The notes below the pieces were generated by a model. The model was not told the origin of the DNA and did no database searches. It saw only the letters and a program-made list of their open reading frames with translations. This document shows positions 1 to 22,294 of a stretch of 23,698 nucleotides of DNA, piece after piece; within the stretch, counting starts at the first letter, position 1; each line of letters starts with the position of its first letter. The position numbers and the translations under genes were made by a program. The DNA lies in IMG/VR virus record IMGVR_UViG_3300008110_000865, positions 1-23,698 of that record. The stretch is one strand, 5' to 3'. The DNA comes from a virus.

Positions 1-153
1 CCGGTACTAGTGAAGAGGATACTCAAGTACACGATAAAGAAAATAAAAGAAGAGTTGGTAGACGTAGAAAGAATGGGGAAGATAAATCTGTCTGAGCCCC
101 ATCGCTTTTGGACTGAAGTAGAAAAGGAAATAGAAAATGGAAGCTATACTTAA
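1..153 (+). CDS. 3'-terminal part of an unidentified gene
   Basis: An open frame enters from the left edge and ends at TAA 151-153, giving the last 50 residues of a protein. The visible part is basic and helical (KRILKYTIKKIKEEL), then acidic at the end. The next gene starts inside it at 137, a 17-nt overlap typical of co-translated phage genes. Its reading frame carries one copy of the CTGAGNCCC motif at 92-100. Function cannot be judged from this fragment. Confidence 0.6.
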   Translation, partial: PVLVKRILKYTIKKIKEELVDVERMGKINLSEPHRFWTEVEKEIENGSYT

Positions 154-358
154 ATTTAATCTCCCTGATGATCAGGACGATTTTCGTTATGCCGTAGAAG
201 GTACTAAGTGGTTTTTGGTTGTTCACACCTTTGACCAATACCTTCGGAATCAGATGAAGTACAACGATAACTTAACTGATGAGGAATATGGGTTACTAGA
301 AAAGGTAAGAGAAGAATTACGCTCTACAATAAATGAAAATCAATTGAGTTTTGAATAA
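137..358 (+). CDS. conserved phage hypothetical protein, 73 aa
   Basis: A small acidic soluble protein beginning MEAILKFNLPDDQDDFRYAV. From memory this N-terminus (MEAILKFNLPED plus an aromatic/acidic stretch, a D-x-x-LR segment and a C-terminal helix) recurs as a hypothetical protein in many siphophage genomes, with no assigned role. The start overlaps the end of the preceding frame by 17 nt, so the two are probably translationally coupled. A promoter-like element lies at its 3' end and drives the next gene. Function unknown. Confidence 0.8.
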   Translation: MEAILKFNLPDDQDDFRYAVEGTKWFLVVHTFDQYLRNQMKYNDNLTDEEYGLLEKVREELRSTINENQLSFE

Positions 359-373
359 AAATAAGTAAATTTG
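344..373 (+). promoter_or_regulatory. Bacteroidetes-type promoter, nearly leaderless
   Basis: TTG at 344-346, 19 bp spacer, then TAAATTTG at 366-373, matching the Bacteroidetes pattern (TTTG / TAnnTTTG). The ATG of the following gene is only 4 nt past the -7 box, so the transcript should be leaderless or almost so. It lies inside the 3' end of the upstream gene. Confidence 0.55.
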
Positions 374-377
374 TAAC

Positions 378-719
378 ATGACACCAGGACAATTTATCGG
401 AACTTTGCTTGCTAGCAGAGATGCTATGCATCTAGCACATTGGAATACTCGTTCTTATTCAGAACATAAGACGCTTGATTCTTACTACAACGGCATACTT
501 GATCTGACAGACTCTTTTGTAGAAGCCTATATGGGTTTGCATGGCCGGATTAACATAGTGGTTAAAGATGTTAAGATAGAGAATGCCAGCACCCATCTTT
601 CGGGCCTCAGAACAATTATCCGCAAGGAGAGAGATAAGTACGAAAGCGAGTTACAGAACATCATGGACGAAATGATGGCTTTGATAGATAAAACTTTGTA
701 TCTACTTACTCTAAGCTAA
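378..719 (+). CDS. Dps-like / DUF5856-like helical protein
   Basis: A 113-aa all-helical protein. Near the N-terminus it shows a Dps/ferritin-like pattern: H21-x-W ('AHWNT'), H30, D42, D45 and E49 in a 'Y..L.D..D...E' helix. Dps proteins use H, D and E residues of this kind for di-iron binding between subunits. From memory, phage homologues of this length are catalogued as DUF5856. It is shorter than bacterial Dps (about 150-170 aa), so cage formation or ferroxidase activity is uncertain. Its own promoter sits immediately upstream (344-373). The frame contains one reverse CTGAGNCCC motif (602-610). The fold is an inference; iron binding is not shown. Confidence 0.75.
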   Translation: MTPGQFIGTLLASRDAMHLAHWNTRSYSEHKTLDSYYNGILDLTDSFVEAYMGLHGRINIVVKDVKIENASTHLSGLRTIIRKERDKYESELQNIMDEMMALIDKTLYLLTLS

Positions 720-948: not shown

Positions 949-953
949 TCAAA

Positions 954-1214
954 ATGTTAAGAACACCACTAATACTAGACATCATTGCCAACGATGGTGA
1001 TGAGGAGGATACTGAGTACCTGGAAAGTTTGGGCCTCAGTTCAATTTACGATGCTGCCACTTTCCCCATTCTCTTCTACCATATAGACCATATACACGAA
1101 GACCTAAGAAGCACAGAAGAAGAACCACTATCTGTTATCTTCAGCGGAGGAGAGAGTTACATAACTAAACACAGTCTTATATCTCTTGCGAAAATGATTG
1201 CGACTTGTCAATAA
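954..1214 (+). CDS. hypothetical acidic protein, 86 aa
   Basis: The ATG begins 6 nt after the tRNA-like element, so the two are probably on one transcript. The product is acidic (DIIANDGDEEDTEYLESLG; a later STEEEP stretch) with no membrane segment and no motif I recognise. The frame contains a reverse CTGAGNCCC motif at 1031-1039. The downstream gene appears to have its own promoter overlapping this gene's end. Function unknown. Confidence 0.65.
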   Translation: MLRTPLILDIIANDGDEEDTEYLESLGLSSIYDAATFPILFYHIDHIHEDLRSTEEEPLSVIFSGGESYITKHSLISLAKMIATCQ

Positions 1215-1229
1215 TTTATATTATATTTG
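1198..1229 (+). promoter_or_regulatory. Bacteroidetes-type promoter, nearly leaderless
   Basis: TTG at 1198-1200, 21 bp spacer, TATATTTG at 1222-1229. The next ATG (1236) starts after only 6 nt, again predicting a transcript with almost no 5' leader. Confidence 0.55.
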
Positions 1230-1235
1230 CACCGT

Positions 1236-1459: not shown

Positions 1460-1489
1460 AAGCCCCATGTGAGTGGGGCTTATTTTTTA
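1460..1489. terminator. bidirectional intrinsic terminator
   Basis: AAGCCCCA (1460-1467) pairs perfectly with TGGGGCTT (1474-1481) around a 6-nt loop and is followed by ATTTTTTAT. A-rich sequence lies on the other side. It sits between a rightward gene ending at 1439 and a leftward gene ending at 1487, as expected for a terminator shared by convergent units. Confidence 0.85.
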
Positions 1490-2110
1490 TATCTCTAGAA
1501 GTGTAAAGTCTATTGATTCTCCGTTAACAAAATTGTTAGTGATCGGGAACCAGTGATTATCCGGAATGACCATACATCCGGCAGACCAAGATCCTACGAT
1601 AGCAGTTACACCACCACGGTGTATATTGATTCCAAAGAGGCCGAACTGCTTATTTACTTTACTAACTGTTCTATCCCTACTGCCATCTCTCCATATGGTG
1701 ATGGGAAGGATCTGCTGAAAGTATGGGGCTCCGAGCCAAAGAGTACTCCACTTCTTATTAGTAACAAAGCGATGTGATCCGATTACTTGTTGTTCGGCAG
1801 CTACTGCGGTCCCGGTTATTCCCATATGGGTAATAGGAGAAAAGACATACTTATCTCCGGCTGTAGTAGAACATGGAACAACCGCTACGCATACTCCTCC
1901 TTTATACACAGCACAGTAATCGTCAAAGGTGTTTGAAAAGACTGCGTCTGTCCTCAAGAACACTAGGCCATCTTTGGGCCTCAGCCATTTATTGGTATTA
2001 ATCCTATTAGTAATATACCAATCAAGAGCAGTAAGAGTCTTAGCCCCAATAATACCATCCTCGGTAAGCTGGGCCCCTTTAGCATTAAGAATCTGTTGTA
2101 ACTTTTTCAT
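1487..2110 (-). CDS. YkuD/L,D-transpeptidase-fold cell-wall enzyme with N-terminal peptidoglycan-binding-like segment
   Basis: 207 aa. The N-terminus (QILNAKGAQLTEDGIIGAKTLTAL) resembles a peptidoglycan-binding-1 repeat with its 'DGIIG..T..AL' signature. The C-terminal half carries the YkuD-like active-site arrangement: H164 in 'NIHRGG' and C179 in 'WSAGCMV', with SAGC in place of the canonical SHGC. Bacterial L,D-transpeptidases cross-link peptidoglycan, but phage proteins of this type are usually taken as lysis enzymes cutting or modifying peptidoglycan; which applies is not visible. No signal peptide is seen, so release would need a holin or another route. ATG 2110 is preferred over 2170 because GGGAGA lies just upstream and the overlap with the upstream gene falls to 26 nt. 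It forms a leftward pair with that gene. Confidence 0.75.
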   Translation of the reverse strand: MKKLQQILNAKGAQLTEDGIIGAKTLTALDWYITNRINTNKWLRPKDGLVFLRTDAVFSNTFDDYCAVYKGGVCVAVVPCSTTAGDKYVFSPITHMGITGTAVAAEQQVIGSHRFVTNKKWSTLWLGAPYFQQILPITIWRDGSRDRTVSKVNKQFGLFGINIHRGGVTAIVGSWSAGCMVIPDNHWFPITNNFVNGESIDFTLLEI

Positions 2111-4242: not shown

Positions 4243-4332
4243 ATGGAATTCGCAATCGTATTTGGCTTTGCTTCATGTATTGCCATCATCTTTGTTTGTC
4301 TGCTTGCTTATATAGTGGACAAGATTATCTGA
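4243..4332 (+). CDS. 29-aa single-pass membrane peptide
   Basis: MEFAIVFGFASCIAII followed by FVCLLAYIV forms one continuous hydrophobic helix covering nearly the whole peptide, ending VDKII. It begins 25 nt after the tRNA-like gene with no Shine-Dalgarno sequence. A CTGAGNCCC motif (4329-4337) overlaps its stop codon. Tiny membrane peptides are common in phage early regions. Coding is plausible from the clean hydrophobic pattern and neighbour spacing but is not proven. Confidence 0.5.
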   Translation: MEFAIVFGFASCIAIIFVCLLAYIVDKII

Positions 4333-4360
4333 GACCCAAACCTAACCAATAAATAAACAA

Positions 4361-4518: not shown

Positions 4519-4833
4519 ATGAATAGAGCATTTTATTTCAACGAGCAAGTCACCCATGTATTGGATGTGCTTAACTACGAATTCGGTAGTGATACTGCTG
4601 TAGAAACTACAGACAGACATGATGAATGTCCCTCAGTTATAGTCAGTTTATTATTAGACCCACCATTTGTCCAAAATTACAAACTTTATTTGCCATCCGA
4701 TCATCGTGGTGACTATGCGGAATTTATTGTTATCCGATTGCATAACATTAAGCAAGACCCAGCCGATGGTGACTTTATTGATGGCTTCAAGTGTCTTGGA
4801 GATGTAGTGGCTTTCTTTAACAATGTTATCTGA
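4519..4833 (+). CDS. hypothetical protein, 104 aa
   Basis: A soluble, mixed alpha/beta acidic protein (starts MNRAFYFNEQVTHVLDVL; contains 'DCECPS'-like polar turns and ends FKCLGDVVAFFNNVI). It follows the two membrane peptides by 5 nt. A CTGAGNCCC motif spans its stop codon (4830-4838), just as in the 29-aa gene upstream. No domain recognised. Confidence 0.7.
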   Translation: MNRAFYFNEQVTHVLDVLNYEFGSDTAVETTDRHDECPSVIVSLLLDPPFVQNYKLYLPSDHRGDYAEFIVIRLHNIKQDPADGDFIDGFKCLGDVVAFFNNVI

Positions 4834-4853
4834 GTCCCAAAAATAAAAATATC

Positions 4854-5235: not shown

Positions 5236-5952
5236 ATGAAAAACGTAGTATTTAGACAAGGCAATACCATCGTATTGTTCACCTTCGGTAAGACATCCAA
5301 TAAAAAGATTGCTCAGCAAGGCGAGACCATCGTGCAGTCATTCCATTTCAGTCGGTCTCAGTTCGAACTCGCACAAGGTAAGACATCCATGCGAGAGTTC
5401 TTCGGTGCTGATGGGGATGTATGTTTCGATTGTCCTTTCTCAGTGAGTAATGGTGCATCACTATCCGCTTGTTATACTCATAAACTTATGCAGTATAGTG
5501 GATTCCTTTCTTCTCTCCGCTCTATAGGTAAGAAGTACTCATCCTTTGATGACATACCCGATCTGAGCCCCAAACTATTCGAGCAGATAGTTGAGCAGTC
5601 TCGTGGTAAGTACGTCCGCTTCGGTTCATATGGAGAACCTATCCTTATACCATACTCCTTAGTTAACGATATCGTAAGTGTGGCTAAGTCCTGGACTGGG
5701 TACACCCACCAATGGATGAGTTACCCGGAGTTCAGCAAGTTCTTCATGGCTTCGACCCATACACCATGTGGAGAGAGCATGGCTCGTGCCTTTGGATGGA
5801 AGTCATTCGTGGCTACCGAAGACAAGTTAACCGATATGGTCAACTGCCCGGCCTCCGAAGAACAGAACTTTAGAAGTAACTGCTCCAAGTGTGGACTATG
5901 TAGTGGCACTGAGGGTAAGGGAAGTAAATCAGTATTCATTTTAGAACATTAA
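5236..5952 (+). CDS. Cys-cluster protein resembling the phage/plasmid DUF7227-type family
   Basis: 238 aa. Ordered signatures: an early Cys pair 'CFDCPF' (about residue 57), another Cys in 'SACYTHK', then 'VRFGSYGEPILIPY' (about 126-140), 'SWTGYTHQW' (about 152-160), 'FFMAST' and 'GWKSF', and a C-terminal 'NCPASEE ... CSKCGLC.GTEGKG'. From memory this series (R-x-G-x-YG-P, TGYTHQW, CPASEE, C-x-x-C-x-x-C) defines a family widespread in phages and plasmids, of unknown function; a metal or Fe-S cluster is plausible from the cysteines. It is the largest recognisable conserved protein of the small-gene array. The family number is from memory. CTGAGNCCC occurs at 5563-5571. Confidence 0.75.
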   Translation: MKNVVFRQGNTIVLFTFGKTSNKKIAQQGETIVQSFHFSRSQFELAQGKTSMREFFGADGDVCFDCPFSVSNGASLSACYTHKLMQYSGFLSSLRSIGKKYSSFDDIPDLSPKLFEQIVEQSRGKYVRFGSYGEPILIPYSLVNDIVSVAKSWTGYTHQWMSYPEFSKFFMASTHTPCGESMARAFGWKSFVATEDKLTDMVNCPASEEQNFRSNCSKCGLCSGTEGKGSKSVFILEH

Positions 5953-6138: not shown

Positions 6139-6363
6139 ATGGAAAACAAATATTTATTATTCGGACGTGAAGTGTGTAACATCCTATTAAACGAAGACAT
6201 TCATGCAGTCGTTCAGCACATCGAACATTGTAACATTAGTAGTTACGATACCTATGTGCTGAGTCCCAATACCAATCCCTTAGAACTGCTTAGTGAGTAT
6301 GATGGATGGAATGGCTATGCAGTAATATCCGAAGAGGAGTTTAACCTGATCAATGGATTGTAA
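6139..6363 (+). CDS. hypothetical protein, 74 aa
   Basis: A small soluble protein (MENKYLLFGREVCNILLNED...; ends EEEFNLINGL). Helical first half, acidic second half. It contains CTGAGNCCC at 6259-6267, read in frame as Leu-Ser-Pro. It is the last gene before a new promoter at 6383-6412. No family recognised. Confidence 0.65.
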   Translation: MENKYLLFGREVCNILLNEDIHAVVQHIEHCNISSYDTYVLSPNTNPLELLSEYDGWNGYAVISEEEFNLINGL

Positions 6364-8073: not shown

Positions 8074-8322
8074 ATGGAGACAATAATTATTGCAGATGTT
8101 TATGTATCCGACATGGGTTATTCAGTTGAATCTTTCTTCCGGGACTACGCAGTGGAATGGAGAGATGTAAGTAATCTCAGCGAAGATATATGTCGCATAG
8201 AAGATATTGAGGACATTGCTGAGTACGAAAAACTGAGCCCCAAACACAAAGAAATAATCGAAGAAATAAAATCCAAAGTAAAACTATTAAACGCATCCTA
8301 CATAAGACTAGTTAACGTATGA
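8074..8322 (+). CDS. hypothetical acidic protein, 82 aa
   Basis: Starts METIIIADVYVSDMGYSVE; an upstream in-frame start at 7987 was rejected because it lies wholly inside the 46-aa gene. Acidic helix-rich C-terminal half ending in a lysine-rich helix. CTGAGNCCC occurs at 8233-8241 and is read as Leu-Ser-Pro. The stop overlaps the next ATG by 4 nt. Function unknown. Confidence 0.65.
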   Translation: METIIIADVYVSDMGYSVESFFRDYAVEWRDVSNLSEDICRIEDIEDIAEYEKLSPKHKEIIEEIKSKVKLLNASYIRLVNV

Positions 8323-8591
8323 AAAAAGTAACCATCACAACACGAGCAGTCTACCACAAAATTGCATCAGTATCTATTGATGTACCGGCAGACATTCCTA
8401 ATGACAAAGTACAAGATTGGATTTGGGAGAACGAGCATCTATTCACCGATGATCTGGACAAGAAGTTAAGCGAAGCACCCTACGAATTCGGCTTCGGTCT
8501 CAGCGATAACATGGACTGGATAGACCAAGAGTCGGAGTCACGATACGATGTAGAAGAAAACGGAGAGATTACATACGGAGGACATATATAA
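8319..8591 (+). CDS. hypothetical protein, 90 aa
   Basis: A beta-strand start (KKVTITTRAVYHKIASVSIDVP) followed by an acidic, helical and loop-rich portion (DDLDKKLSE; ESRYDVEENGEI). The first strand pair is typical of small phage accessory proteins. ATGA overlap with the upstream gene. No family recognised. Confidence 0.65.
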   Translation: MKKVTITTRAVYHKIASVSIDVPADIPNDKVQDWIWENEHLFTDDLDKKLSEAPYEFGFGLSDNMDWIDQESESRYDVEENGEITYGGHI

Positions 8592-9177: not shown

Positions 9178-9281
9178 GCACAATGAGGATGTAGTTCAGG
9201 CACTGAGTCCCAAAGAAATAGAAGAAATCAAAGAACAATTTAACACAATAACAAAGTAATAAATCAAACAAATCAAAAACC

Positions 9282-12212: not shown

Positions 12213-12483
12213 TGTTTTTGTTCCGATAGAGGACTACAATGAGTTCGTATCTCGTTTTGACAATGCTAAGGTTGCCATAGATGCGCTGACCATAGCTGTT
12301 GAAAACCGGGTGCGTTCTCATCGTAGCCTACTGAATCGTGATTTAATTAATCGCAAGGATAGAATTAAGATTACTATCCCAGTTAAGGAACATCTCATGC
12401 CATACCTCAATGAGTATTGCGTAATGAAAGGACTAACAAGAACTGAGTTTATAACCAAAGTATTAAAGAGAAGAAACATATGA
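12199..12483 (+). CDS. ribbon-helix-helix-like DNA-binding protein upstream of the recombinase
   Basis: 94 aa. The N-terminal half is helical and acidic; the C-terminal half reads 'DRIKITIPVKEHLMPYLNEYC' followed by 'MKGLTRTEFITKVLKRR', which matches a ribbon-helix-helix fold: a strand, helix A, turn, helix B with basic end. RHH proteins bind DNA as dimers through the paired strands and often repress their own operon or assist recombinases. The stop overlaps the recombinase ATG by 4 nt, so the two are translationally coupled. The fold call is by pattern. Confidence 0.65.
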   Translation: MEKIDVFVPIEDYNEFVSRFDNAKVAIDALTIAVENRVRSHRSLLNRDLINRKDRIKITIPVKEHLMPYLNEYCVMKGLTRTEFITKVLKRRNI

Positions 12484-13160
12484 AAGCGTTAGGTTACATC
12501 CGTGTATCAACAGATATGCAAGCAGAGAAAGGTACTTCACTTGAGAACCAAGTTGCACGTATCAAAGAGTTCGCTGAAAGTCGTGGTCTTGAACTCGAAA
12601 AGATTTACGAGGATGCCGGGTTCAGCGGTAAGAATACCAATAGGCCGGCTTTTCAGGAAATGTTTAGCAGAATAAGTTTTGGTGGTGTGAGTGCAGTTAT
12701 CGTATGGCACAGCACACGCTTTGCTCGTAATCTCCGGGACTTCATTAACCACATGGCTGAGCTGGAAAAGAGAAAGATTAAGTTCTATTCCATAGAGGAG
12801 CCTGAGATGTCTGGATCTTCCGGCAAGGCAATGCGTAATCTTATGGCTGTCTTTGCCGAATATCAGTCCGATGTAACCTCCGAGTATACCAGATCAGTTA
12901 AGGCGAATCTTAAAAAGAATCTGCAAGTATACTGCGCTACTCCTCCCCTTGGGTTTATACATGAGGATGGTAAATTAGTCCGAGACCCAAACACTTACCA
13001 GATCGTGGAGCAAATCTTTTCCTTCAAGGCAGAAGGTATGTCGATGCATACCATAGCCAAAACACTTAATCGTTTAGGTTATAGTGGTCACAAAGGTGGT
13101 AAGTTTTATACAAGTACAATACAGAAAATATTAAACAATAAGATATATGAAAACATTTGA
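12480..13160 (+). CDS. serine recombinase lacking a zinc-ribbon domain
   Basis: 226 aa. Catalytic N-terminal domain: 'YIRVST' with R8 and nucleophile S10, R55 in 'NRPAF', and 'TRFARN' (R80, R83) in place of the usual DRLxR. 'GSSGKAMRNLMAVFAEYQSD' matches the region before the long E helix. Residues about 155-226 ('PPLGFIHEDGKLV...YQIVEQIF...GMSMHTIAKTLN..G...TIQKILNNKIYENI') are a recombinase domain (PF07508-like). The chain ends directly after it, so the zinc ribbon and coiled coil of large serine integrases (450-550 aa) are missing. It may be an invertase/resolvase-type enzyme, or a truncated integrase. The 3' end overlaps the next gene by 14 nt. Confidence 0.9.
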   Translation: MKALGYIRVSTDMQAEKGTSLENQVARIKEFAESRGLELEKIYEDAGFSGKNTNRPAFQEMFSRISFGGVSAVIVWHSTRFARNLRDFINHMAELEKRKIKFYSIEEPEMSGSSGKAMRNLMAVFAEYQSDVTSEYTRSVKANLKKNLQVYCATPPLGFIHEDGKLVRDPNTYQIVEQIFSFKAEGMSMHTIAKTLNRLGYSGHKGGKFYTSTIQKILNNKIYENI

Positions 13161-13506
13161 AACAAAACAAGACAGACAAATCATAGAACAAATTCAAGAT
13201 TGTATCGAGGAAGTAATTGGTGTGCCTCGTGAGTTCTGGGTACACAGAAGAAGTAGGAAAATTGAAGAAGTAACGATACGTCACATCTATGGTTACTTCC
13301 TGAAAAATATGACCGGGATGTCCTTGCAGAGTATTGCAAATCACTTGGGTCACATTAATCATACAACCATTATCAGTTCAAATAGAGTGGTTGATAATTG
13401 GTTAAGCGTTCCTACTATGTATAGAAAAGAAAATCAAATCATTAAGCAAGTCGAGAAGTTATACGCAGAAAGGTATCCGGAATGTATTACTGAACTTATT
13501 GATTAA
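13147..13506 (+). CDS. DnaA domain IV-like DNA-binding protein (paralog 1)
   Basis: 119 aa. 'VTIRHIYGYFLKNMTGMSLQSIANHLGHINHTTIISSNRVV' in pieces corresponds to the DnaA C-terminal helix-turn-helix: an R-H-I helix, 'SLQ.IA..LG', then 'NHTTI' at the place of DnaA's DHTTV box-recognition signature. The AAA+ domain of DnaA is absent. The N-terminal part has 'IEEVIGVPREFW..RRSRK', also seen in paralog 2. Such stand-alone domains may bind DnaA-box-like sequences to start or regulate phage replication. Its start lies within the end of the recombinase gene. Confidence 0.8.
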   Translation: MKTFETKQDRQIIEQIQDCIEEVIGVPREFWVHRRSRKIEEVTIRHIYGYFLKNMTGMSLQSIANHLGHINHTTIISSNRVVDNWLSVPTMYRKENQIIKQVEKLYAERYPECITELID

Positions 13507-13516: not shown

Positions 13517-14014
13517 ATGAAAGTAAAAATAGATCATGAGATGAACATTGTTCCTATCAAAAAGAGAACAGCGTTGAAATTATTCACACTGATAATGGTT
13601 GGTGTAGTTGTTATTACCAATATATATCTATTGACAAAGAACCCGGAGATTCAGACCATATACCGGTATCTGAGTCCCGATCACAACCACAATGATGTAC
13701 CGCTGACACAAGATTCTTTGACTGCGGAATTGCACAAAGATGGATGTGTTCTAGTTAACGTAGCGATTGCTCAGGCTCGTCTGGAATCTAATCTCGGCAA
13801 GAGCAATGTGGGTAGGAACGCAAAGAATATGTTTGGTATTACTTACCACAACTGCAAGTATGTCTCCGGCAAGTACGGACCATACGCAACCTACAAAACG
13901 TATCGTGACAACATCAAATGCTACATCCACATCCAAGACTATTATCTCCGGGCAATCGATGGCAAGTATGCTGAAGCACCGGATTACGTTCAAACAATAA
14001 AGAAACTGAAATGA
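13517..14014 (+). CDS. membrane-anchored GH73-like glucosaminidase (FlgJ/LytG-type)
   Basis: 165 aa. A basic cytoplasmic start is followed by one membrane helix (about residues 20-39) and an extracytoplasmic domain. 'VAIAQARLESNLGKS' with E90 as the likely catalytic acid, then 'NAKNMFGI' and 'YATYKTYRDNI..YI.IQDYYLRA', are hallmark features of mannosyl-glycoprotein endo-beta-N-acetylglucosaminidase domains that cut peptidoglycan glycan strands. ATG 13517 was chosen; an in-frame TTG at 13499 overlaps the previous stop. The stop overlaps the next start (ATGA). Its position between two DnaA-like genes, far from other lysis genes, is unusual. Confidence 0.85.
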   Translation: MKVKIDHEMNIVPIKKRTALKLFTLIMVGVVVITNIYLLTKNPEIQTIYRYLSPDHNHNDVPLTQDSLTAELHKDGCVLVNVAIAQARLESNLGKSNVGRNAKNMFGITYHNCKYVSGKYGPYATYKTYRDNIKCYIHIQDYYLRAIDGKYAEAPDYVQTIKKLK

Positions 14015-14364
14015 TATACATAGAAACAAAACAGCAGACGAAAGTAAGACAGAACATTGTAGAATCTATCGAAGATGTACTCGGTGTTCCAAGAGAACTA
14101 TGGGAGATACGCAGAGGTCGTACCTCACAAGAGGTAATGATTCGCCATATCTTTATCCATATGTTGCACAACTACGGAAAGTTTACACTGCAAAACATTG
14201 CACGTATCGTAGGACTCAAAAATCATTCTACTGTTATCCAGTCTATCAATCTTACCAAAGAGTGGTATACTGAGTACAGATGGGTGCATGAAAGAATTTT
14301 GTTAGACCAGATCAAAGAAAACTATGAACAAAGAATTAATAAAACTGCTGAGTCATTTGCTTGA
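14011..14364 (+). CDS. DnaA domain IV-like DNA-binding protein (paralog 2)
   Basis: 117 aa, clearly paralogous to the protein at 13147-13506: shared 'IE(D/E)V(L/I)GVPRE(L/F)W..RR.R...EV.IRHI' and 'LQ.IA...G..NH(S/T)T(V/I)I.S'. The HTH recognition segment reads 'LKNHSTVIQS', equivalent to DnaA's DHTTV region. The two paralogs differ in the loop before NHxT, so they may recognise different sites. The 3' end overlaps the next gene by 41 nt. Confidence 0.8.
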   Translation: MIYIETKQQTKVRQNIVESIEDVLGVPRELWEIRRGRTSQEVMIRHIFIHMLHNYGKFTLQNIARIVGLKNHSTVIQSINLTKEWYTEYRWVHERILLDQIKENYEQRINKTAESFA

Positions 14365-14629
14365 TAAGAGCGATCCCAATTGGGCTCAGAACCCGGAACT
14401 AATCGATGCTATGAATAAGCTACATGAAAGAAAAACTTTTGCTCCACCAACTCTTCAGGAAGTAATTGATGAGCTGGCAAGACAAAAAGTATTTAATCAT
14501 GTGGTCCAGGCTACCAAGTTTTGGAATTTCTATGAGGCTAAGAATTGGATGATAGGAAAAAACAAAATGAAAAATTGGAAAGCAGCCATCAAGACTTGGA
14601 ACTTTGAAAAAGAAAGTATATTTTTGTAA
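14324..14629 (+). CDS. replication-protein C-terminal-domain-like protein, 101 aa
   Basis: The second half, 'FAPPTLQEVIDELARQ...VVQATKFWNFYEAKNWMIGKNKMKNWKAAIKTW', is the pattern 'PP.leEV...., A.kF.n.Y...nW.vGknkMknWkaAi..W' found at the C-termini of many Bacteroidetes phage and plasmid replication proteins. Here it stands nearly alone, without the usual N-terminal helix-turn-helix domain. A helicase-loading or primosome role is plausible from that resemblance and from the neighbouring DnaA-like and primase genes. Confidence 0.75.
   Translation: MNKELIKLLSHLLDKSDPNWAQNPELIDAMNKLHERKTFAPPTLQEVIDELARQKVFNHVVQATKFWNFYEAKNWMIGKNKMKNWKAAIKTWNFEKESIFL
14596..14626 (+). promoter_or_regulatory. Bacteroidetes-type promoter before the primase-polymerase run
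   Basis: TTG (14596-14598), 20 bp, TATTTTTG (14619-14626), overlapping the end of the previous gene; ATG 14638 follows after 11 nt. It could raise expression of the primase-helicase and polymerase downstream. Confidence 0.5.
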
Positions 14630-14637
14630 ACTTGCTT

Positions 14638-15162: not shown

Positions 15163-15601
15163 ACTTGAGTATGTAAATCGTAATAACAATGTAATTACAT
15201 TTACCAAGTTGGATGACCAGTCAGTTATCATGGAAGGTGTGCAGTTTATGCGTGCCAAGTATGATGCTGATTTGTATCAGCCGGATGATAATGTGTATGA
15301 CATGGTTGACCCGGATGGTGGACCGTATCTTACTAAGGGTATGTCTTTAGAGCATATCAATAAGAATTGGTATCACCTGATCATCCGGTACTTCTCGATT
15401 GAGGACACAAATAAAATCCATATTTATTTCTATCCGGACACCATCAGCAAGAACATTACCAATGACCGTGTGATCTGGAAGATATACAATACTGATGGAG
15501 AGATAATTGCTCAGAAGGATTCTTATGAGAAGGCTATTAGATTTATAGAAAGTAAGTACGACTACGATGAATTCGGACAAGCTTGTAAGGTTGGGAATTG
15601 A
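15155..15601 (+). CDS. hypothetical protein, 148 aa
   Basis: Soluble acidic mixed alpha/beta protein. 'MEGVQFMRAKYDADLYQPDD' and 'YDMVDPDGGPYLTKGMSLE' in the first half; strand-rich 'HLIIRYFSIED', 'IHIYFYP', 'VIWKIYNTDGEIIAQKDSYEKAI' in the second. The repeated strand pattern suggests a compact beta-sandwich or alpha/beta domain, but no family is recognised. It overlaps the primase-helicase start by 35 nt, so the two are likely coupled. Confidence 0.7.
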   Translation: MSKLEYVNRNNNVITFTKLDDQSVIMEGVQFMRAKYDADLYQPDDNVYDMVDPDGGPYLTKGMSLEHINKNWYHLIIRYFSIEDTNKIHIYFYPDTISKNITNDRVIWKIYNTDGEIIAQKDSYEKAIRFIESKYDYDEFGQACKVGN

Positions 15602-17306
15602 CTTGAGGAACAGATGGAGCGGAGAGGTTAAGACTCTCTGCCCCAAATGTTCTAATCAAAGAAAGAAAAAGAATGATCCTTCACTCGGTGTAAACATAGA
15701 TACCGGTGTTTGGAAATGTCACCACTGCGGATGGTCAGGTTCAGTTAATCAGTATGTGAGACCCGAACCAAAGAAACCTATTCAGACCGATGGGATTTAT
15801 ACTTACTTTGAGAAACGTAAGATTACGAAGGAAACAGTGGACCTTTTTGGAATTACTGAGTCAACCGAATGGATGCCCCAGGATCAGAAAGAACACAAGG
15901 TTATTTGCTTTAATTATTTTCTAAACGATGAACTTATCAATATCAAATTCAAGACCGCTGACAAGAAGTTCAAGATGGTCAAAGACGCACGCAAAATCCC
16001 TTATAATGTGGATTCAATCAAAGACTCTGAGTATGTTATCATATGCGAAGGAGAAGAAGAGACAATGGTCTGGCATCAGTCTAACCTCAGAGCAGTTTCT
16101 GTGCCTAACGGTGCTAGTCGGAACAATAACAATCTTGACTGGCTTGATGCTACTTATGACCTTTTTGAGTCAAAAATAATTTACCTTGCAACTGATAACG
16201 ATGAGCCCGGAAGGAAACTGCGCCAAGACATAGCACGTAGGTTCTCTAGCCATGATATCCGTATCATAGATTTTCCGGAGAGCGAGAAGGATGCCAATGA
16301 TTGCCTTAAGAGATACGGTCAGGATTTTATATCTCGTTTATTCCACGATGCTAAACCACTTCCGGTGGAAGAAATATCTTACGCCATGGACTACTTGGAT
16401 ACCATCAAGTCTTTTCAGACCGATGGATATCCTGTTGGTGCTTTGGTAGATATGACTGAGACCGATAAGCATCTGTCGTGGAACCGGGGAGAACTCGGTG
16501 TGGTTACAGGCATCCCGGGTTCAGGTAAAAGTACATGGCTCGACTATATGTTTGTTCGCCTTGCCTACCTAAAGAACTGGAAGTTTGGAATCTTCTCACC
16601 TGAGAACATAGCACCGCTGAAAATTACCCGGATGAGCGAGCAATTGTTGAACAAGCCATTGAATCAGATGAATACCGGTGAGTTGGAAGCAAGCGTGAAC
16701 ATTTTAGATAAGCACTTTTGGTTCTACAATGTTGAGACTATGGAAGACTACTCGCTAACCAATCTGCTACGCTTGGGTGAGATGCTTGTTAAACGGCACG
16801 GAATCGATTGTCTATGCTTAGATCCTTTCAATTACATCGAGCAGGATGGAGACGAGGAAAGTTCCAACGAGAGAATCGGTGGACTGCTGAGAAGACTGAA
16901 GAAATTTGCTGTTAAGAACAATGTCTGCGTAGTACTTGTGGCTCACCCAAGAAAGATGGATAAGTCTGCCAATGGTTATAATGTACCTAGGCTGTACGAT
17001 ATCAGCGGATCCCACCATTTCTTTAACGTTCCGGATTGGGGTTTGGCAGTACACCGCTCTTTCCAAAACGGAGAGAAGGATCCGGTAGAAGTATACGTGC
17101 AAAAAATAAAATACCACTTCCGTGGAAAATTGGGCCGGGTTGATTACGAATTCAATCGTGCAACTGGACAGTACAGCGAGGATGGGAAGTTTCACAATTT
17201 AATACACTTGAAAAATGATAGCGATATTGATGAACATAATTTGTTCAGCTCACCGGAAGCGTGGGGAAGAGGTGCTGGAATTCAACCTCAGTCCACACTA
17301 CTATAA
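15567..17306 (+). CDS. primase-helicase, T7 gp4-like
   Basis: 579 aa with three parts in order. (1) Zinc-binding primase domain: C25-P-K-C28 and C51-H-H-C54. (2) TOPRIM: E161 in 'VIICEGEEE', D210 and D212 in 'YLATDNDEPG'. (3) RecA-like ring helicase: Walker A GIPGSGKST at 315-323 and Walker B-like 'IDCLCLDPFNYI' near 413-424. Such enzymes lay RNA primers and unwind DNA 5'-3' at the fork, working with the phage polymerase encoded just downstream. Length is close to T7 gp4 (566 aa). The start overlaps the upstream gene by 35 nt. Confidence 0.95.
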   Translation: MNSDKLVRLGIDLRNRWSGEVKTLCPKCSNQRKKKNDPSLGVNIDTGVWKCHHCGWSGSVNQYVRPEPKKPIQTDGIYTYFEKRKITKETVDLFGITESTEWMPQDQKEHKVICFNYFLNDELINIKFKTADKKFKMVKDARKIPYNVDSIKDSEYVIICEGEEETMVWHQSNLRAVSVPNGASRNNNNLDWLDATYDLFESKIIYLATDNDEPGRKLRQDIARRFSSHDIRIIDFPESEKDANDCLKRYGQDFISRLFHDAKPLPVEEISYAMDYLDTIKSFQTDGYPVGALVDMTETDKHLSWNRGELGVVTGIPGSGKSTWLDYMFVRLAYLKNWKFGIFSPENIAPLKITRMSEQLLNKPLNQMNTGELEASVNILDKHFWFYNVETMEDYSLTNLLRLGEMLVKRHGIDCLCLDPFNYIEQDGDEESSNERIGGLLRRLKKFAVKNNVCVVLVAHPRKMDKSANGYNVPRLYDISGSHHFFNVPDWGLAVHRSFQNGEKDPVEVYVQKIKYHFRGKLGRVDYEFNRATGQYSEDGKFHNLIHLKNDSDIDEHNLFSSPEAWGRGAGIQPQSTLL

Positions 17307-17457
17307 GAAACTGAAATCCAAAGAATTCAATTACCATGGATTAATAATTCCCATAGTATGCGAGGGATGGATTAAAGTAAAAGACTACTACTACTTAGAA
17401 CTAGAAACAACACACGGAAATTTATTAACCAATCAAATAACATATAGACTAAAATGA
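17272..17457 (+). CDS. hypothetical protein, about 61 aa, between primase and polymerase
   Basis: Reading frame to 17457 with 'LEFNLSPHYYKKLKSKEFNYHG' and 'IPIVCEGWIKVKDYYYLELETTHG' in two strands-rich blocks. In-frame ATGs at 17215 and 17233 would give overlaps of 92 and 74 nt with the primase-helicase, so GTG 17272, just after GGGGAAGAG, is preferred; the start is uncertain. The stop overlaps the polymerase ATG by 4 nt. Function unknown. Confidence 0.55.
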   Translation: MLEFNLSPHYYKKLKSKEFNYHGLIIPIVCEGWIKVKDYYYLELETTHGNLLTNQITYRLK

Positions 17458-19382
17458 TAAAGGTATACGACATAGAAACATTCTCCAATTGTTTTACATA
17501 CATAGATTACGATCCGGAGGATCAAACATTTAATGAATTTGTTGTCTGTGAATTCAGAAACGATCTGGATGCATTTATTGCCTACATGGATTCTCTTTTG
17601 AAAAAGAAGGCCGGAATGATTGGTTTCAATAACGTGAACTTTGACTGGCCGATAGTTAAAGCATTGTGGGAAGGACAAATTCGTACTGCTGAGCAAGTCT
17701 ATGCCATGGCTCAGGAGATAACTTCCAGGGAAAAGAAACAATATGTTAAGCAAGACATACCACAATTAGACTTATATTTGCTGAATCATTATGACAATAA
17801 GGCACGTTCAACATCTCTGAAGGCACTTGAGGTTTCCTTGGGATGGAACAATGTGATGGATATGCCCTTTCATCATACTGAGAAAATCGATAAGATAAAA
17901 TTACTTAAGGTGCTAGAGTACAACAAGAACGATGTACTATTCACCGCTAAGTTTTATGAGAAATGTTCTGAGAAAATTGAACTCAGAAAAAAGATAGGCA
18001 AGAAATATAATCTGAACGTTTTGAATAAATCTGATGTGGTTATCGGAGAATCTATCTTCCTTAAGTACATGAGCGAGGCCATGGGAATCCCCATGCGACA
18101 ACTGGCTGAGATACGTGGTAAAAGATCTGATGTGCCTCTGAAGGATATCATATTACCTAACGTAAGGTTTGAGGCTCAAGAGTTTAACAAGTTGCTTGAA
18201 CTTATGAGAGTTACAACTTCTTCCCCGCAGTTCTTGCAAAATTTTGTGGATGGGCTCGATATGCGTTCAAACGTTAATGATTTATACGATAAATTTAAGG
18301 ACAACAATATTCGTGTGCAGAGAATAGCACAGCAGAAAAAGAGTTTTTCCTTCTCAGTCAACTTCGGTGGTCTGTGTTTAGATTATGGTGTGGGTGGTAT
18401 ACATGGTTGCATAACTCCGGGAGTTTATGTGTCCAGTAAATATAGTAAAATACTGGACATTGATGTTAAGTCTTATTATCCTAATTTATTTATACAGAAT
18501 CGTTTACATCCACGCCAAATGGATCAGGATACCTTTGTAAATGTGTATAGTGATATTTATCAGCAAAGGTTAAAAGCGCAGCAGGAAAAAGATACGCTGA
18601 CCTCTGATGCGTTAAAACTTGCACTGAATGGAATGTTCGGTAAGACTGGTAGTGATGTGTCATGTTTCTTCGATCCTTTTGTATTTTATGGGGTTACTGT
18701 GAATGGTCAGCTCTTCTTGTCCATGCTCGTGGAACAATTGGTTAAGAACGGAGCAGAACTGCTTCAGGTTAACACAGATGGTGTGACAATTAGCATACCT
18801 CGTAAATTGGAAGAAAAGATATTAGAAGTTTGCAGAAGCTGGGAGAAGGAAACTAAGTTAACCCTTGAGTACGCATCTTACAGCAAAATGATTATCCGGG
18901 ATGTGAATAACTACATTGCTGTATCTGAGAACGGTAAGATTAAAGAGAAAGGTGCATTTGAGACCAAAAAGGATTGGCACAAGGATAACTCCTTTATGGT
19001 AGTTCCTTACGCTGTCCGTGAGTACTTTGTCAATGGGACTCCGATAGAAGATACCTTACGTAACCATGAGAACATTCTAGACTTCTGTGGTCGATATAAA
19101 GCATCTAAGGGATGGCACGTGGAATACATTTATTTGGATGGCAATAAGGAAAAGAGAATGGACTTTGGTAAGATGTATAGATACCTTCCGGTGAACAAAG
19201 GTGGGACCTCTATGAAGATAAATAAGGACGGAAGAGAACACCATCTGTGCGAAGGAATTCAGACTATACCTTATAACACAACTGAACTTTTCGATAAGTC
19301 CAACTTGAACTACCAGTTTTTTGAAAACGAATGCAGGAAATTAATCGAGACGATCAAGCCGAGTCAATTGATACTCCTATGA
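17454..19382 (+). CDS. family B DNA polymerase with 3'-5' exonuclease
   Basis: 642 aa. Exonuclease: 'YDIETF' (D6, E8), 'NVNFDWP' (D64) and 'YNKNDV' (about 157-162). Polymerase: motif A 'DIDVKSYYPNLF' (about 335-346), motif B 'KLALNGMFGKTGS' (about 386-398), motif C 'VNTDGVTI' (about 438-445), where NTDG replaces the YxDTDS form. The overall size is that of compact phage polymerases. Protein priming (phi29-type) is not indicated, since a primase-helicase is encoded next to it. It overlaps neighbours by 4 nt on the left and probably 4 nt on the right. Confidence 0.95.
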   Translation: MIKVYDIETFSNCFTYIDYDPEDQTFNEFVVCEFRNDLDAFIAYMDSLLKKKAGMIGFNNVNFDWPIVKALWEGQIRTAEQVYAMAQEITSREKKQYVKQDIPQLDLYLLNHYDNKARSTSLKALEVSLGWNNVMDMPFHHTEKIDKIKLLKVLEYNKNDVLFTAKFYEKCSEKIELRKKIGKKYNLNVLNKSDVVIGESIFLKYMSEAMGIPMRQLAEIRGKRSDVPLKDIILPNVRFEAQEFNKLLELMRVTTSSPQFLQNFVDGLDMRSNVNDLYDKFKDNNIRVQRIAQQKKSFSFSVNFGGLCLDYGVGGIHGCITPGVYVSSKYSKILDIDVKSYYPNLFIQNRLHPRQMDQDTFVNVYSDIYQQRLKAQQEKDTLTSDALKLALNGMFGKTGSDVSCFFDPFVFYGVTVNGQLFLSMLVEQLVKNGAELLQVNTDGVTISIPRKLEEKILEVCRSWEKETKLTLEYASYSKMIIRDVNNYIAVSENGKIKEKGAFETKKDWHKDNSFMVVPYAVREYFVNGTPIEDTLRNHENILDFCGRYKASKGWHVEYIYLDGNKEKRMDFGKMYRYLPVNKGGTSMKINKDGREHHLCEGIQTIPYNTTELFDKSNLNYQFFENECRKLIETIKPSQLILL

Positions 19383-19681
19383 AGATAAATGTCCCACATT
19401 ATGGGATAGATCTTCGCAGAATCTTATTTGCTCTCAAGGATGAGATTCTGACTCATGAGTTATGCTTCTCGCCTAAGATTGAAAAGAAGTTTGACAATGT
19501 AATTGTACCCACACTGCGGAGGAGATTTAAGATGCGTCCGGTACGTGACTTTATCGTTATTCATTACATCCGGGACGTAAAAGTTCCGGTTATCATGGAT
19601 GGAGACAAATTGTCTGACCACACCATAGATGTAATTTCAAATTATCTGGAGCGGATGCAAGTTAATTATCCTAAACCCTAA
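19379..19681 (+). CDS. hypothetical protein, 100 aa, end of the replication operon
   Basis: Starts MKINVPHYGIDLRRILFALKDE, with basic 'VPTLRRRFKMRPVRDFIVIHYI' and a final helix. ATG 19379 is preferred over the in-frame 19331 because it makes the genome's usual ATGA overlap with the polymerase stop. It is the last rightward gene and overlaps the convergent terminase gene by 11 nt. Its basic middle could contact DNA, but no family is recognised. Confidence 0.65.
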   Translation: MKINVPHYGIDLRRILFALKDEILTHELCFSPKIEKKFDNVIVPTLRRRFKMRPVRDFIVIHYIRDVKVPVIMDGDKLSDHTIDVISNYLERMQVNYPKP

Positions 19682-21482
19682 CCTTCTTCCAAACACGGAT
19701 GTATCTGCCATTGACAAATTCCAAGACCGGAATCTCTTTCTCAGTTAACTTCTCCGGCTGTTTCTGTTCGTGTTTCTTAACGATGTTCTTATGGAATATC
19801 TCGCACGCTACCATGGCATCCACGATATCTGTGTTATCGACAAGATAGTTTTTCAATTCCTGAATCATTTCGAGGAACCAAATGTCCTCGGTGTATGTCT
19901 TCAGATAATCTATGAGGTATGAGTTGCCTCTTTCTGCTGTAATATCGTTCTTATAATAACCAACTGAATCATCGTCCTTCCAAAATCCCTTACCTAGGAA
20001 GATAGGTTTCTTGGCCAATAGATGAATCTTTCCGGCATCCTTGTACTTCTGCTTCACCACACCACCCCGGTTGATTTCTATCATGGCCACAGCGTTATTG
20101 TAGTACTCCTGGAGTAGAATCATATTATTAACGATCTGATCAGGATCTGAGTCCCGTTCTGCATAATACGCAACGTACCTATTGGTATCGATATCTTTAA
20201 TGGCAATGGCTTGCTTAGAACCATCGCCCATGTTCTTTGAGTTAAATGGAATGGGGTCAATCCCGGCTATGTACGTATGATCTGGCTGTGGATTCTCTAA
20301 AAAGTGTATCGGACTGGTTATGGCAGCACGTTTAATTATATTGCCATCGTAGTTACGATGTAACTCGGACCGATCAATTGGTGGGCGAGACGCTAAGATA
20401 ATCCTCTCCTGAGTATCGAGTTTATCCATGATCGCTTTAGGGAAAGCACCGTGACCGCTAACAGAGAAGACTTCTTGAATCTCAAGCGGATACTGTTTGA
20501 TAAATGAGTTCAAATAACTTTTATCATCCAGTTTGTCTAGTGTCTCCCTTGTCTTCATAATCCATTCGGTTGCAGCCTTCTCATCGCTATACCCATTGGG
20601 ACAGAAGTTCAGTATGCGTCCGGTTTCTTTTCCGTTCTCATCCAACTCCGGAGCCTCCATGATTCCTTGGTTTCCGGGAAGAAAGAGCGTAAGAATCTTC
20701 AGCGACTCAGCGTTGTCCCACAGTGTCTTAGCCAATTTCTGTCCGATTGAAGTAGCTTCACCGGCACTTCCACCGATAACGATGGGAGCCACTTTTACGA
20801 AACCCGACTTCGTACTCGCTTGAGCAGATTTATAAACCTGATCGGCCTTGGGGTGAAGCATACACTCGTCTATGAAAATATGCATAGCACGATACGCCTC
20901 GAATGCTGTTGGAGTATCAACTGTTTCCTTGGTGATGATCTGGGAGTCTAGTCCAGTTATTGTTCCGGTCTTTGTGTCTCTTTTACCAAGGTGCAGATAA
21001 CCTTCTTGCCTTGTGGATACAATACCGGGCCGGGCATACTCATCAAACTCATCATACACCACACGAACCTTATCCTTGAATAAAGCCGTCAGACGCTGTT
21101 TATCTGCTGATGTAATCAAAGATGTAGAACCGGGGTAAGTCATGGCTATCCACAGCGGAATAATTCCACCAAAGACAAAGGAGAGACCGACCTCTCGTCT
21201 CTTGGTTACAAATAAATCATGATTGCTCCTACGAGCTTCCATGTAACCTTCGTAAATCAATTCGTCTATATCACGCCAAACTGGTCTCTTCTTGAAGCCT
21301 CTTGCATCTTTAACCCATCCTTGGGTAAGGGCAAAGTAGTGTGGTCCGGTTAATCCGAAACGACCCTCTAGCCAATACTCTCTTTCTTGGATCCACCACT
21401 TATCCTTCTCGCTTTTGGTAGCGTTAAGGCTCAGTCCATATTTGGACCACCATTCGTTATATTCGAACTTTGGTTTTTTCAT
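19671..21482 (-). CDS. terL: terminase large subunit (TerL)
   Basis: 603 aa ATPase-nuclease that packages DNA into the prohead. ATPase: Walker-A-like 'TKRREVGLSF' (93-102; a non-classical P-loop common in TerL), Walker B 'MHIFIDE' (200-206). Nuclease: 'YIAGIDP' with Asp (about 411), 'VAMIEIN' with Glu, and 'TDIVDAMV' with Asp near the C-terminus, the RNase H-fold acidic set. Length is slightly above average for TerL. It is leftward and convergent with the replication operon, overlapping its last gene by 11 nt; no terminator is visible between them. The ATG overlaps the upstream gene stop (ATGA). CTGAGNCCC lies at 20147-20155. Confidence 0.95.
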   Translation of the reverse strand: MKKPKFEYNEWWSKYGLSLNATKSEKDKWWIQEREYWLEGRFGLTGPHYFALTQGWVKDARGFKKRPVWRDIDELIYEGYMEARRSNHDLFVTKRREVGLSFVFGGIIPLWIAMTYPGSTSLITSADKQRLTALFKDKVRVVYDEFDEYARPGIVSTRQEGYLHLGKRDTKTGTITGLDSQIITKETVDTPTAFEAYRAMHIFIDECMLHPKADQVYKSAQASTKSGFVKVAPIVIGGSAGEATSIGQKLAKTLWDNAESLKILTLFLPGNQGIMEAPELDENGKETGRILNFCPNGYSDEKAATEWIMKTRETLDKLDDKSYLNSFIKQYPLEIQEVFSVSGHGAFPKAIMDKLDTQERIILASRPPIDRSELHRNYDGNIIKRAAITSPIHFLENPQPDHTYIAGIDPIPFNSKNMGDGSKQAIAIKDIDTNRYVAYYAERDSDPDQIVNNMILLQEYYNNAVAMIEINRGGVVKQKYKDAGKIHLLAKKPIFLGKGFWKDDDSVGYYKNDITAERGNSYLIDYLKTYTEDIWFLEMIQELKNYLVDNTDIVDAMVACEIFHKNIVKKHEQKQPEKLTEKEIPVLEFVNGRYIRVWKKVRV

Positions 21483-21865
21483 TTACGCCCTGAGACCCGA
21501 TCCAAAAATGAGCTCTCGTCTTCCTCTAGTTTATCTTCCGGATACGCTTCCAGTTTAGCAAGCTTCAGACTCTTGTTAATTTTATCTCCAGCTTGTAGCA
21601 ATTGGAATAAACCCTTCTGATAAGGATCATCCAAATCGAGAACTTCATCCCGAACTTTCTGCATTAATTGCTTAGATGCTGAGACTAAAGTCCCATAGAA
21701 GTCCTTGGCAGGATCAAAGTTCTGAACCTGCAGTTTCTCTATGGCATCCTCCGGAGAAAGATTATTTTCCTTTAGGTACTCCGAGAGTTTTTCTAAGCTC
21801 GCTGATTTTTCGCTTTTGTTCTTCAATTTCTTTTTGAGCTTTGTTCGCTTCAATTGGATTATCAA
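21479..21865 (-). CDS. hypothetical protein in the small-terminase position; start uncertain
   Basis: Frame of up to 128 aa, highly charged and helical: 'KLSEYLKENNLSPEDAIEKL', 'FYGTLVSASKQLMQKVRDEV', ending 'EDESSFLDRVSGRK'. It sits immediately upstream of TerL with an ATGA overlap, the position typical of TerS, and the all-helical composition fits, but no HTH is clear. Only TTG starts (21865, 21853, 21826) are available before the body, and the frame overlaps the 62-aa gene upstream by up to 104 nt. It might be reached by +1 frameshifting from that gene. Confidence 0.6.
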   Translation of the reverse strand: MIIQLKRTKLKKKLKNKSEKSASLEKLSEYLKENNLSPEDAIEKLQVQNFDPAKDFYGTLVSASKQLMQKVRDEVLDLDDPYQKGLFQLLQAGDKINKSLKLAKLEAYPEDKLEEDESSFLDRVSGRK

Positions 21866-21950
21866 TGGCGGTATAATATTCCCACCACGACATTAACTTC
21901 TGAAGTTTAATAACTTCCTCTTCGATTATTTGTTTATTGCTTTTAGCCAT
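21762..21950 (-). CDS. small coiled-coil protein, 62 aa
   Basis: MAKSNKQIIEEEVIKLQKLMSW, then a helical 'ANKAQKEIEEQKRKISELRKTLG' with heptad-like hydrophobics, ending in GVPKGK. Two antiparallel helices are likely. Overlaps the gene upstream by 25 nt and the TerL-adjacent frame by up to 104 nt. May be a separate protein or the N-terminal half of a frameshift product. Confidence 0.55.
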   Translation of the reverse strand: MAKSNKQIIEEEVIKLQKLMSWWEYYTAIDNPIEANKAQKEIEEQKRKISELRKTLGVPKGK

Positions 21951-22294
21951 TGCGGTAAATCAAAATTAAGTAAATCGCCTTCTTCTACATTGTAACCCAT
22001 AGAAAGATAAAATCTAACCAGGTTTGAAAGAGTGAGCAGTTGATCGCTTGTCGCTGTATTACAGAGTCTGTACTCTTCATCTATTCCACCTATTAAGGCG
22101 ATATGTATATCTGAGACCCTTTCCTTTAGCACATACATATAACCTTGCTCATTTATACAATGCGTAAAGATTGGTGTTCTTCCCAATCCTCCTATGTGAA
22201 ATGTATCAGTGCTTAGTCTAGGCATAGATCTTTCGTGCTTATGCACTTCGCTGGGCCTCAGACTTGTTTTGGAATATGTCCAATAGATTTTCAT
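21926..22294 (-). CDS. hypothetical protein, 122 aa
   Basis: Starts MKIYWTYSKTSLRPSEVHKHER; contains 'FHIGGLGRTPIFTHCINEQGYMYVL', a strand-rich middle, and an acidic helical end. It carries a reverse CTGAGNCCC (22253-22261) and a forward copy (22111-22119). It overlaps both neighbours (4 nt with the DUF1599-like gene, 25 nt with the next), typical of one packaging operon. Function unknown. Confidence 0.65.
   Translation of the reverse strand: MKIYWTYSKTSLRPSEVHKHERSMPRLSTDTFHIGGLGRTPIFTHCINEQGYMYVLKERVSDIHIALIGGIDEEYRLCNTATSDQLLTLSNLVRFYLSMGYNVEEGDLLNFDLPQWLKAINK

Follow-up and report, generated by a model that had tools for sequence, protein, structure and literature searches.

A short gapped DNA word is conserved site by site across a phage family and may act as a Chi-like signal

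Why is one gapped 9-mer, CTGAGNCCC, written again and again into the IMG/VR virus record IMGVR_UViG_3300008110_000865, and what reads it? The record is 23.7 kb long and was analysed at its full length (positions 1 to 23,698), which is called the window in the following. An earlier note on this DNA had counted 16 exact copies, where about 0.3 would be expected in AT-rich DNA. All copies were recovered at exactly the positions given, and dinucleotide shuffles yielded a mean of 0.27 copies and at most 2 in 100 sequences. Equally exact were the split into 11 plus- and 5 minus-strand copies, the use of all four bases at N (A 3, C 4, G 4, T 5) and the preference for A or G directly after the motif (A 11, G 4, T 1). 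The copies and variant sites of the window, with their position relative to the tabulated open reading frames (ORFs), are:

92..100, plus: CTGAGCCCC copy, outside tabulated ORFs
602..610, minus: CTGAGGCCC copy, antisense in ORF 378-719
1031..1039, minus: CTGAGGCCC copy, antisense in ORF 954-1214
1976..1984, minus: CTGAGGCCC copy, sense, frame 0, in ORF 1487-2170 (minus)
4329..4337, plus: CTGAGACCC copy, outside tabulated ORFs
4830..4838, plus: CTGAGTCCC copy, spanning the end of ORF 4519-4833
5563..5571, plus: CTGAGCCCC copy, sense, frame 0
6259..6267, plus: CTGAGTCCC copy, sense, frame 0
8233..8241, plus: CTGAGCCCC copy, sense, frame 0
9203..9211, plus: CTGAGTCCC copy, sense, frame 0, in small ORF 9062-9259
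12079..12087, minus: CTGAGCCCC copy, antisense in ORF 11814-12212
13670..13678, plus: CTGAGTCCC copy, sense, frame 0, in a glucosaminidase-like gene
20147..20155, plus: CTGAGTCCC copy, antisense in the gene for the terminase large subunit (terL)
21490..21498, plus: CTGAGACCC copy, antisense in a TerS-like gene
22111..22119, plus: CTGAGACCC copy, antisense in ORF 21926-22294 (minus)
22253..22261, minus: CTGAGGCCC copy, sense, frame 0, in ORF 21926-22294 (minus)
5353..5361, minus: variant site CTGAGACCG
8495..8503, minus: variant site CTGAGACCG
10118..10126, plus: variant site CTGAGCCCG
14381..14389, minus: variant site CTGAGCCCA
16456..16464, plus: variant site CTGAGACCG, in the primase-helicase gene

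Codon-preserving shuffling, which the earlier note had named among the tests that could refute the enrichment, kept the proteins and the codon usage of 46 ORFs (ORF 2555-2764 was omitted and 9161-9259 replaced 9062-9259); these ORFs contain 13 copies, whereas 2,000 shuffles gave 0.40 on average and never more than 4. Single-base variants at the fixed positions of CTGAGNCCC are present with 0-4 copies each in the window, and the reversed pattern has zero copies. CTGAGNCCC had the top score among the gapped words tried in the window, a score that is post hoc because the motif was picked there; the relatives are an independent test, but G001 and L010 are near copies (100% identical polymerase and terminase). 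All seven copies that lie fully inside genes in sense direction are read in frame as CTG-AGN-CCC (Leu-Ser/Arg-Pro), which indicates that coding opportunity influences where copies are placed, and 7 of the 12 Leu-Ser/Arg-Pro tripeptides of the window are written with the motif. The claim of a true 9-mer, and not a codon pair, stands insofar as the enrichment survives the codon null, but has to be qualified by the in-frame sense copies and by preferences that extend past nine bases. Similarly, the stretch 13679-20146 indeed has no exact copy, but is interrupted by two variant sites, CTGAGCCCA at 14381 (minus) and CTGAGACCG at 16456 (plus).

Searches with the terminase and the polymerase gave 43 and 54 viral loci, and all 97 have at least one motif site. 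Counting the motif in relatives was one of the checks named in the earlier note; among the 28 close-relative records picked from the 97 loci (59 contigs by our own count) all 28 carry it, with 306 sites in 762 kb and a single occurrence of the reversed pattern. Of the distant records with 39-44% polymerase identity (27 of 29 loci were used; L266 and L282 were omitted), 25 of 27 carry the motif (169 sites in 827 kb, reversed pattern 11), and nine further loci with 62-71% primase identity have 42 sites versus 1.7 expected, one of these loci having 50% G+C. The motif is the top-scoring gapped word tried in the pooled relatives, too. Seven clade-1 records contain 116 distinct motif sites versus 4 for five control patterns combined (four letter permutations and one single-letter variant), and the observed/expected ratio in these records is 24-38. 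When all three endings of the word (C, G or A) are counted, six large records have 28-44 dispersed sites per genome, and the density in large relatives is about one per 1.6-2.6 kb.

The motif is selected at the DNA level, site by site and throughout the family. In pairwise alignments at 70-75% identity it was intact in 1,654 of 3,385 cases (49%), the corresponding values being 8.5% for same-frame windows nearby and 8.1% for windows matched in GC content, and an excess over control windows was found in each of the eight identity bands between 60 and 97%. Alignments were seeded on shared words, high-scoring segment pairs with more than 97% identity or less than 300 bases were excluded, each pair was counted both ways and the control windows were drawn from the same alignments; these counts, like those for terL and the polymerase gene, refer to sequences and not to evolutionary events. 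For single genes, terL of 33 of 43 loci, the polymerase gene of 39 of 54 loci and the primase gene of 32 of 66 loci were each aligned with the window. Of the 34 aligned terL sequences, 31 have the site at window position 20147 intact. They all encode the peptide RDSD and have identical motif bases, whereas the first base of Arg and the third base of the last Asp, which lie just outside, vary; RDTD is encoded by the three sequences that lack the site. Over terL as a whole, a shared residue is spelled with the same codon with a chance of 0.52. At the terL site, the motif bases are fixed in 31 of 31 sequences next to variable synonymous bases. Of 33 aligned primase genes, 26 have the variant CTGAGACCG at 16456, so CCG sites are retained as well, and the stretch devoid of exact copies is not empty. 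Each of the remaining sites in the terminase gene, the polymerase gene and the primase gene is found in at most 10 sequences, so there is site turnover as well. That the word acts as DNA, as had been proposed, is further supported by its occurrence in both orientations relative to genes (including antisense in terL and the TerS-like gene), by the lack of enrichment outside ORFs and by a synonymous constraint that is limited to the motif.

Homologous sites (at least 45% identity over the flanks) were removed before motif anatomy, ORF position and orientation were counted. The 116 distinct sites in 379 kb of the seven clade-1 records gave tCTGAGNCCCaa, with T preferred before and AA after the word, and the refined consensus is tCTGAGNCC(C>G>A)aa. 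Relatives also use the endings CCG and CCA; in the pooled relatives the last base, after the fixed CTGAG, is C in 230, G in 135, A in 72 and T in 10 sites. No partner or other strong element was found within 60 bp of the motif at the 116 distinct clade-1 sites. Position 5 is relaxed (A 39, C 15, G 43, T 28) in a sister clade (G029, G031-G033, G044), which also favours C at position 10 (67 of 125). Exact counts fall to 1, 0, 0 and 2 in G042, G046, G048 and G049 and to 1, 3 and 0 in G056, G057 and G058 of a shifted clade. This clade (loci L273, L277, L279 and L280) had been considered motif-less and a natural negative, which was rejected: its 65-kb member G057 has the shifted form CTGAANCCC / TCTGANNCCC, and CTGAANCCC (10 copies) exceeds CTGAGNCCC (3 copies). 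The differences between clades at positions 5 and 10 indicate that the recognised word has drifted; the drift analysis was seeded with CTGANNCCC, and a larger shift of the word would escape it.

Of the 116 distinct sites, 10 lie in the 7.6% of the bases outside ORFs of at least 60 amino acids (aa); sites inside and outside ORFs are thus roughly proportional to length, and there is no intergenic enrichment. Spacing is near random in six large records (coefficient of variation 0.76-1.17), that of G019 being marginally more regular than expected by chance (3.3% of random sets). A role as promoter or operator or at the RNA level does not fit the presence of both orientations, the lack of enrichment outside ORFs and the near-random spacing.

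The motif-bearing viruses form a family that has not been described before and probably infects Bacteroidota. One of the records, IMGVR_UViG_2814122945_000004 (67.6 kb), has a terminal repeat of 77 bp. No near match to the window was present among 50,697 phage records, and alignments of TerL and polymerase against genome contigs revealed no relative of the window. The proposed host is suggested by gene leaders and named matches. Shine-Dalgarno-like leaders are scarce, with 2 of 18 genes in the window (control 2) and 1-4 of 44-48 genes in five relatives (control 4-8), and A-rich leaders were found upstream of genes in the window and these relatives. A-rich leaders without Shine-Dalgarno sequences are a trait of Bacteroidota. 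The box TAnnTTTG was found 135 times versus 84 for its reversed control in G013 and 86 versus 87 times in G057, an excess in some records only. Named primase matches at 32-34% identity include Tenacibaculum and Flavobacterium phages and vB_RanS_PJN03; the best named polymerase matches (32-36%) are from phages of Edwardsiella, Agrobacterium and others and do not point to Bacteroidota. Besides many small genes, the window encodes:

12480..13160, plus: serine recombinase of 226 aa with a Resolvase and a partial Recombinase domain; candidate reader, with homologues in all 14 large records
13147..13506, plus: stand-alone DnaA domain IV protein, weighed as reader and disfavoured
14011..14364, plus: second stand-alone DnaA domain IV protein
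14324..14629, plus: 101-aa protein, in 14 of 14 large records
15567..17306, plus: DNA primase/helicase
17454..19382, plus: DNA polymerase, phrog_1252
19671..21482, minus: terminase large subunit (terL)
21479..21865, minus: small protein adjoining terL, present in all 14 large records; called TerS-like solely because of its position, without a PHROG match

The C-terminus of the 101-aa protein, judged by eye, may resemble that of a helicase loader. Built of the catalytic domain and half a Recombinase domain, the small serine recombinase belongs to the core genes of the motif-bearing family.

As to the reader, our preferred but tentative answer is that the motif may be a directional signal of the Chi type that serves DNA-end processing or recombination. 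Of the three roles proposed before, this one agrees best with a dispersed, asymmetric and conserved word of modest strand bias, and it has a precedent in other phages (PMC3784561). CTGAGNCC followed by C, G or A, as tCTGAGNCCCaa, would be a short asymmetric one-site word that is scattered through the phage DNA with one orientation mildly preferred. A translocating DNA-end-processing or recombination enzyme would read it, stop degrading the phage DNA and spare or recombine it instead. The reader would be a helicase-nuclease, most likely of the host RecBCD or AddAB type or possibly a phage RecE-like exonuclease system, and the benefit would be survival of linear or concatemeric phage DNA, plus recombination-dependent replication. 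As in Chi systems, a short non-palindromic word is strongly over-represented in the replicon and strand polarity is present, if modest. Chi has a strand bias, its variants are partially tolerated and different bacteria use different Chi words; the graded last base of the motif resembles the tolerance and its drift between clades parallels the change of words. Like the Chi sites of RecBCD and AddAB, as described by Bobay, Touchon and Rocha (2013, PMC3784561), the motif is short, asymmetric, dispersed in coding DNA, phage-enriched and variant-tolerant. Unlike Chi, the word is different, gapped, wider (about 12 bp with flanks) and carried by exonuclease-encoding phages; moreover, the key feature of Chi is enrichment in the host chromosome, and for the motif enrichment is established in phage records. 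In the paper on Chi, lambdoid phages without a RecBCD inhibitor over-represent Chi, T5-like and P1-like phages do so most among other E. coli phage genera, and phages with their own recombinase enrich Chi less in E. coli, as a tendency and not strictly (PMC3784561). A further study links a low Chi content to heavier CRISPR targeting of viruses (PMC10076291).

A number of results weigh against the Chi-like reading, and the first concern polarity. Exact sites in polymerase orientation amount to 172 plus and 74 minus over 16 records (our own sums), and the raw bias in the late arm is 119 plus versus 32 minus (three groups), but in codon-preserving shuffles the late-strand genes gave plus sites roughly two to three times more opportunity than minus sites. 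The raw bias therefore largely reflects opportunity and was dropped as strong evidence. A residue remains and counts in favour of the Chi-like reading, with 179 plus sites versus 150.2 expected among 257 distinct sites in ORFs (z 3.7) and with 18 plus and 4 minus exact-form sites outside ORFs of at least 60 aa. CCG and CCA sites alone are not significantly polar in clade 1 (49:35), and G003 is without strand bias (13:17). Directionality is supported, but modest. Furthermore, Chi tends to be most strongly enriched in those E. coli phages that lack a recombinase, but a YqaJ/RecE-like exonuclease is encoded in 16 of 25 records, including all 14 of at least 47 kb, where it is homologous to the RecE-like one of G013; no annealing protein was identified, and a protein near the exonuclease has the tail DDDLPF, which looks SSB-like. 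The soft flanking preferences look more like a duplex-binding site, and the word is shared by family loci with 50% and 34% G+C, which does not obviously point to one host lineage. The observed/expected ratio of 24-38 far exceeds the median of 2.5 for Chi in lambdoid phages with recombinase and without inhibitor, as given in PMC3784561 with a different expectation model.

Nor did other phages, viral groups outside the family or Bacteroidota plasmids show a clear enrichment. Thirteen other phages, nine of which bear the name of a Bacteroidota bacterium or have one as host, have 2 sites in 810 kb (reversed pattern 7), and loci related to Tenacibaculum phage JQ and Flavobacterium phage elemoA have 1 in 83 kb, 0 in 362 kb and 2 in 360 kb, that is 3 in 805 kb (49 of 50 loci were used; L386 was omitted). 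Plasmids of Runella, Emticicia and Haliscomenobacter have 1 site in 461 kb (reversed 2). A second set of Bacteroidota plasmids has 22 sites in 3.1 Mb (reversed 14), among them Hymenobacter with 9 versus 4 and Spirosoma with 5 versus 1, at most a weak excess, and Prevotella with 5 versus 5 over two records; in a 1.77-Mb Prevotella replicon there are 4 sites, as many as for the reversed control. Close motif pairs occur in at least 80 further viral loci, in which the density was counted; the 10 inspected are repeat-rich or have isolated pairs, with 40-58% G+C.

A close rival, only somewhat less probable than the Chi-like reading, is that a core DNA-binding protein encoded by the phage recognises the word as its duplex site and serves to compact, segregate, replicate or package the DNA; candidates are the serine recombinase, the TerS-like protein and other small core proteins. 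Such a binder would account for a motif that tracks the phage family across loci of 34-50% G+C, drifts with the phage clade and is gone from loci that share only a 28-35% identical primase, all 14 of which lie outside the family and together have 1 site in 167 kb versus 2.4 expected. The soft flanks resemble the matrix of a duplex site, and small proteins of unassigned role are, like the serine recombinase, present in 14 of 14 large records. However, polarity beyond codon opportunity is unexpected for a simple architectural protein, no partner half-site lies within 60 bp as it would in a recombinase dimer site, and co-variation with the motif was checked for the recognition element of DnaA domain IV alone, where it failed. 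The nucleoid or silencing protein proposed earlier is conceivable and ranks below the Chi-like role. A phage-autonomous directional system is less likely than not: a core phage protein of DNA-end processing, replication or packaging would read dozens of dispersed 12-bp sites, and a Chi-like grammar, carried by the phage family from host to host, would have diverged in specificity between clades. The stand-alone DnaA domain IV proteins were tempting as readers because the word resembles the DnaA box TTATNCACA (TGAGNCCCA in the motif), likewise an asymmetric 9-mer with an internal N, and proteins with PF08299 were found in 37 of 54 family records, many of them fragments. That these proteins bind the motif as a re-targeted DnaA box is nevertheless improbable, and they were rejected: 3 of 8 fixed positions differ in the best alignment, the recognition helices are diverse (NHTT, NHST, DHST, KYHTS, KDHTG and others) while the motif is constant, PF08299 proteins are present in the motif-shifted clade (G042, G046, G048, G049), and none was found in the motif-rich 57-kb record G015, which is possibly incomplete. 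Neither presence nor recognition helices thus track the motif.

The asymmetry and the mild orientation bias, together with a methyltransferase-family protein (phrog_757) encoded by G013, the one such family recognised by PHROGs, would also suit an asymmetric modification or restriction target of type III or IIG-like kind, possibly guarded by the orientation bias. Restriction selects for the loss of sites and does not fit sites that are enriched and conserved, and a survey of shared proteins, with the ORFs of at least 100 aa of the window, G013 and G055 as queries, did not place phrog_757 among the proteins common to at least 6 of 14 large records; the modification role named in the earlier note leaves site retention unexplained and is improbable. 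Still less probable are directional sites for an FtsK-type translocase in a plasmid-like phage, similar to the FtsK-orienting polar sequences (KOPS, GGGNAGGG). The motif, too, is asymmetric, gapped, G-rich on one strand, dispersed and modestly polar, and four relatives are circular by terminal overlap. But the word is different and no convergent polarity was seen: judged by eye, one orientation dominates the late arm and the early region is mixed, without a clean switch at two points of the circle. The density is also high for sites of the KOPS type. Chance, codon usage or shared ancestry alone could be invoked because the whole sense copies of the window are all Leu-Ser/Arg-Pro codons and related phages share sites by descent; this explanation is contradicted by the codon-preserving nulls, the 116 distinct non-homologous sites and the conservation above neighbouring windows, and its probability is negligible.

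The strings CTGAGNCCC, GGGNCTCAG, CTGAGNCC and CTGANNCCC were not found by exact match in 5.39 million open-access papers. Word searches in titles and abstracts, with most subscription journals outside their scope, returned no reported Chi word for Bacteroidota, and we know of none. To our knowledge, a short DNA word kept by selection all along the genome has been shown in few phage families. Should the reader be a host enzyme, the phages would disclose the Chi word of some Bacteroidota; should it be a phage protein, they would carry a directional DNA signal system of their own. Under either reading, the clade-level shift at position 5 is a natural experiment for finding the reader.

Other words are over-represented as well. 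A second enriched word in the window, TGATCNGGA / TCCNGATCA, has 10 copies versus 0.8, with only 0-3 copies per locus in the relatives, and the pattern AAAAN6CCCC was found 10 times versus 0.5. Counted over both strands, TGCANNNNNTGCA scores 36 versus 2.3 expected in the 67.6-kb relative G013 (L106-L109) and AACCNNNGGTT 22 versus 2.2 in G057 (L309-L312). In elemoA relatives (L337-L361) the palindromes TTAGNNNCTAA (218 versus 31, both strands) and GGTCN6GACC (46 versus 1.5) are over-represented, counts that are inflated by descent because the records are related. Among the genes of the relatives, G013 has a B12-dependent ribonucleotide reductase-like gene (L109:642-2498), 51% identical to a Sphingobium plasmid-encoded protein, and in the 69-kb relative G019 (L112:4798-5144) ARAGORN predicts a transfer-messenger RNA with the tag GNVELSPMAFEDAMSFVSNEYKVAA and a tRNA-Ala.

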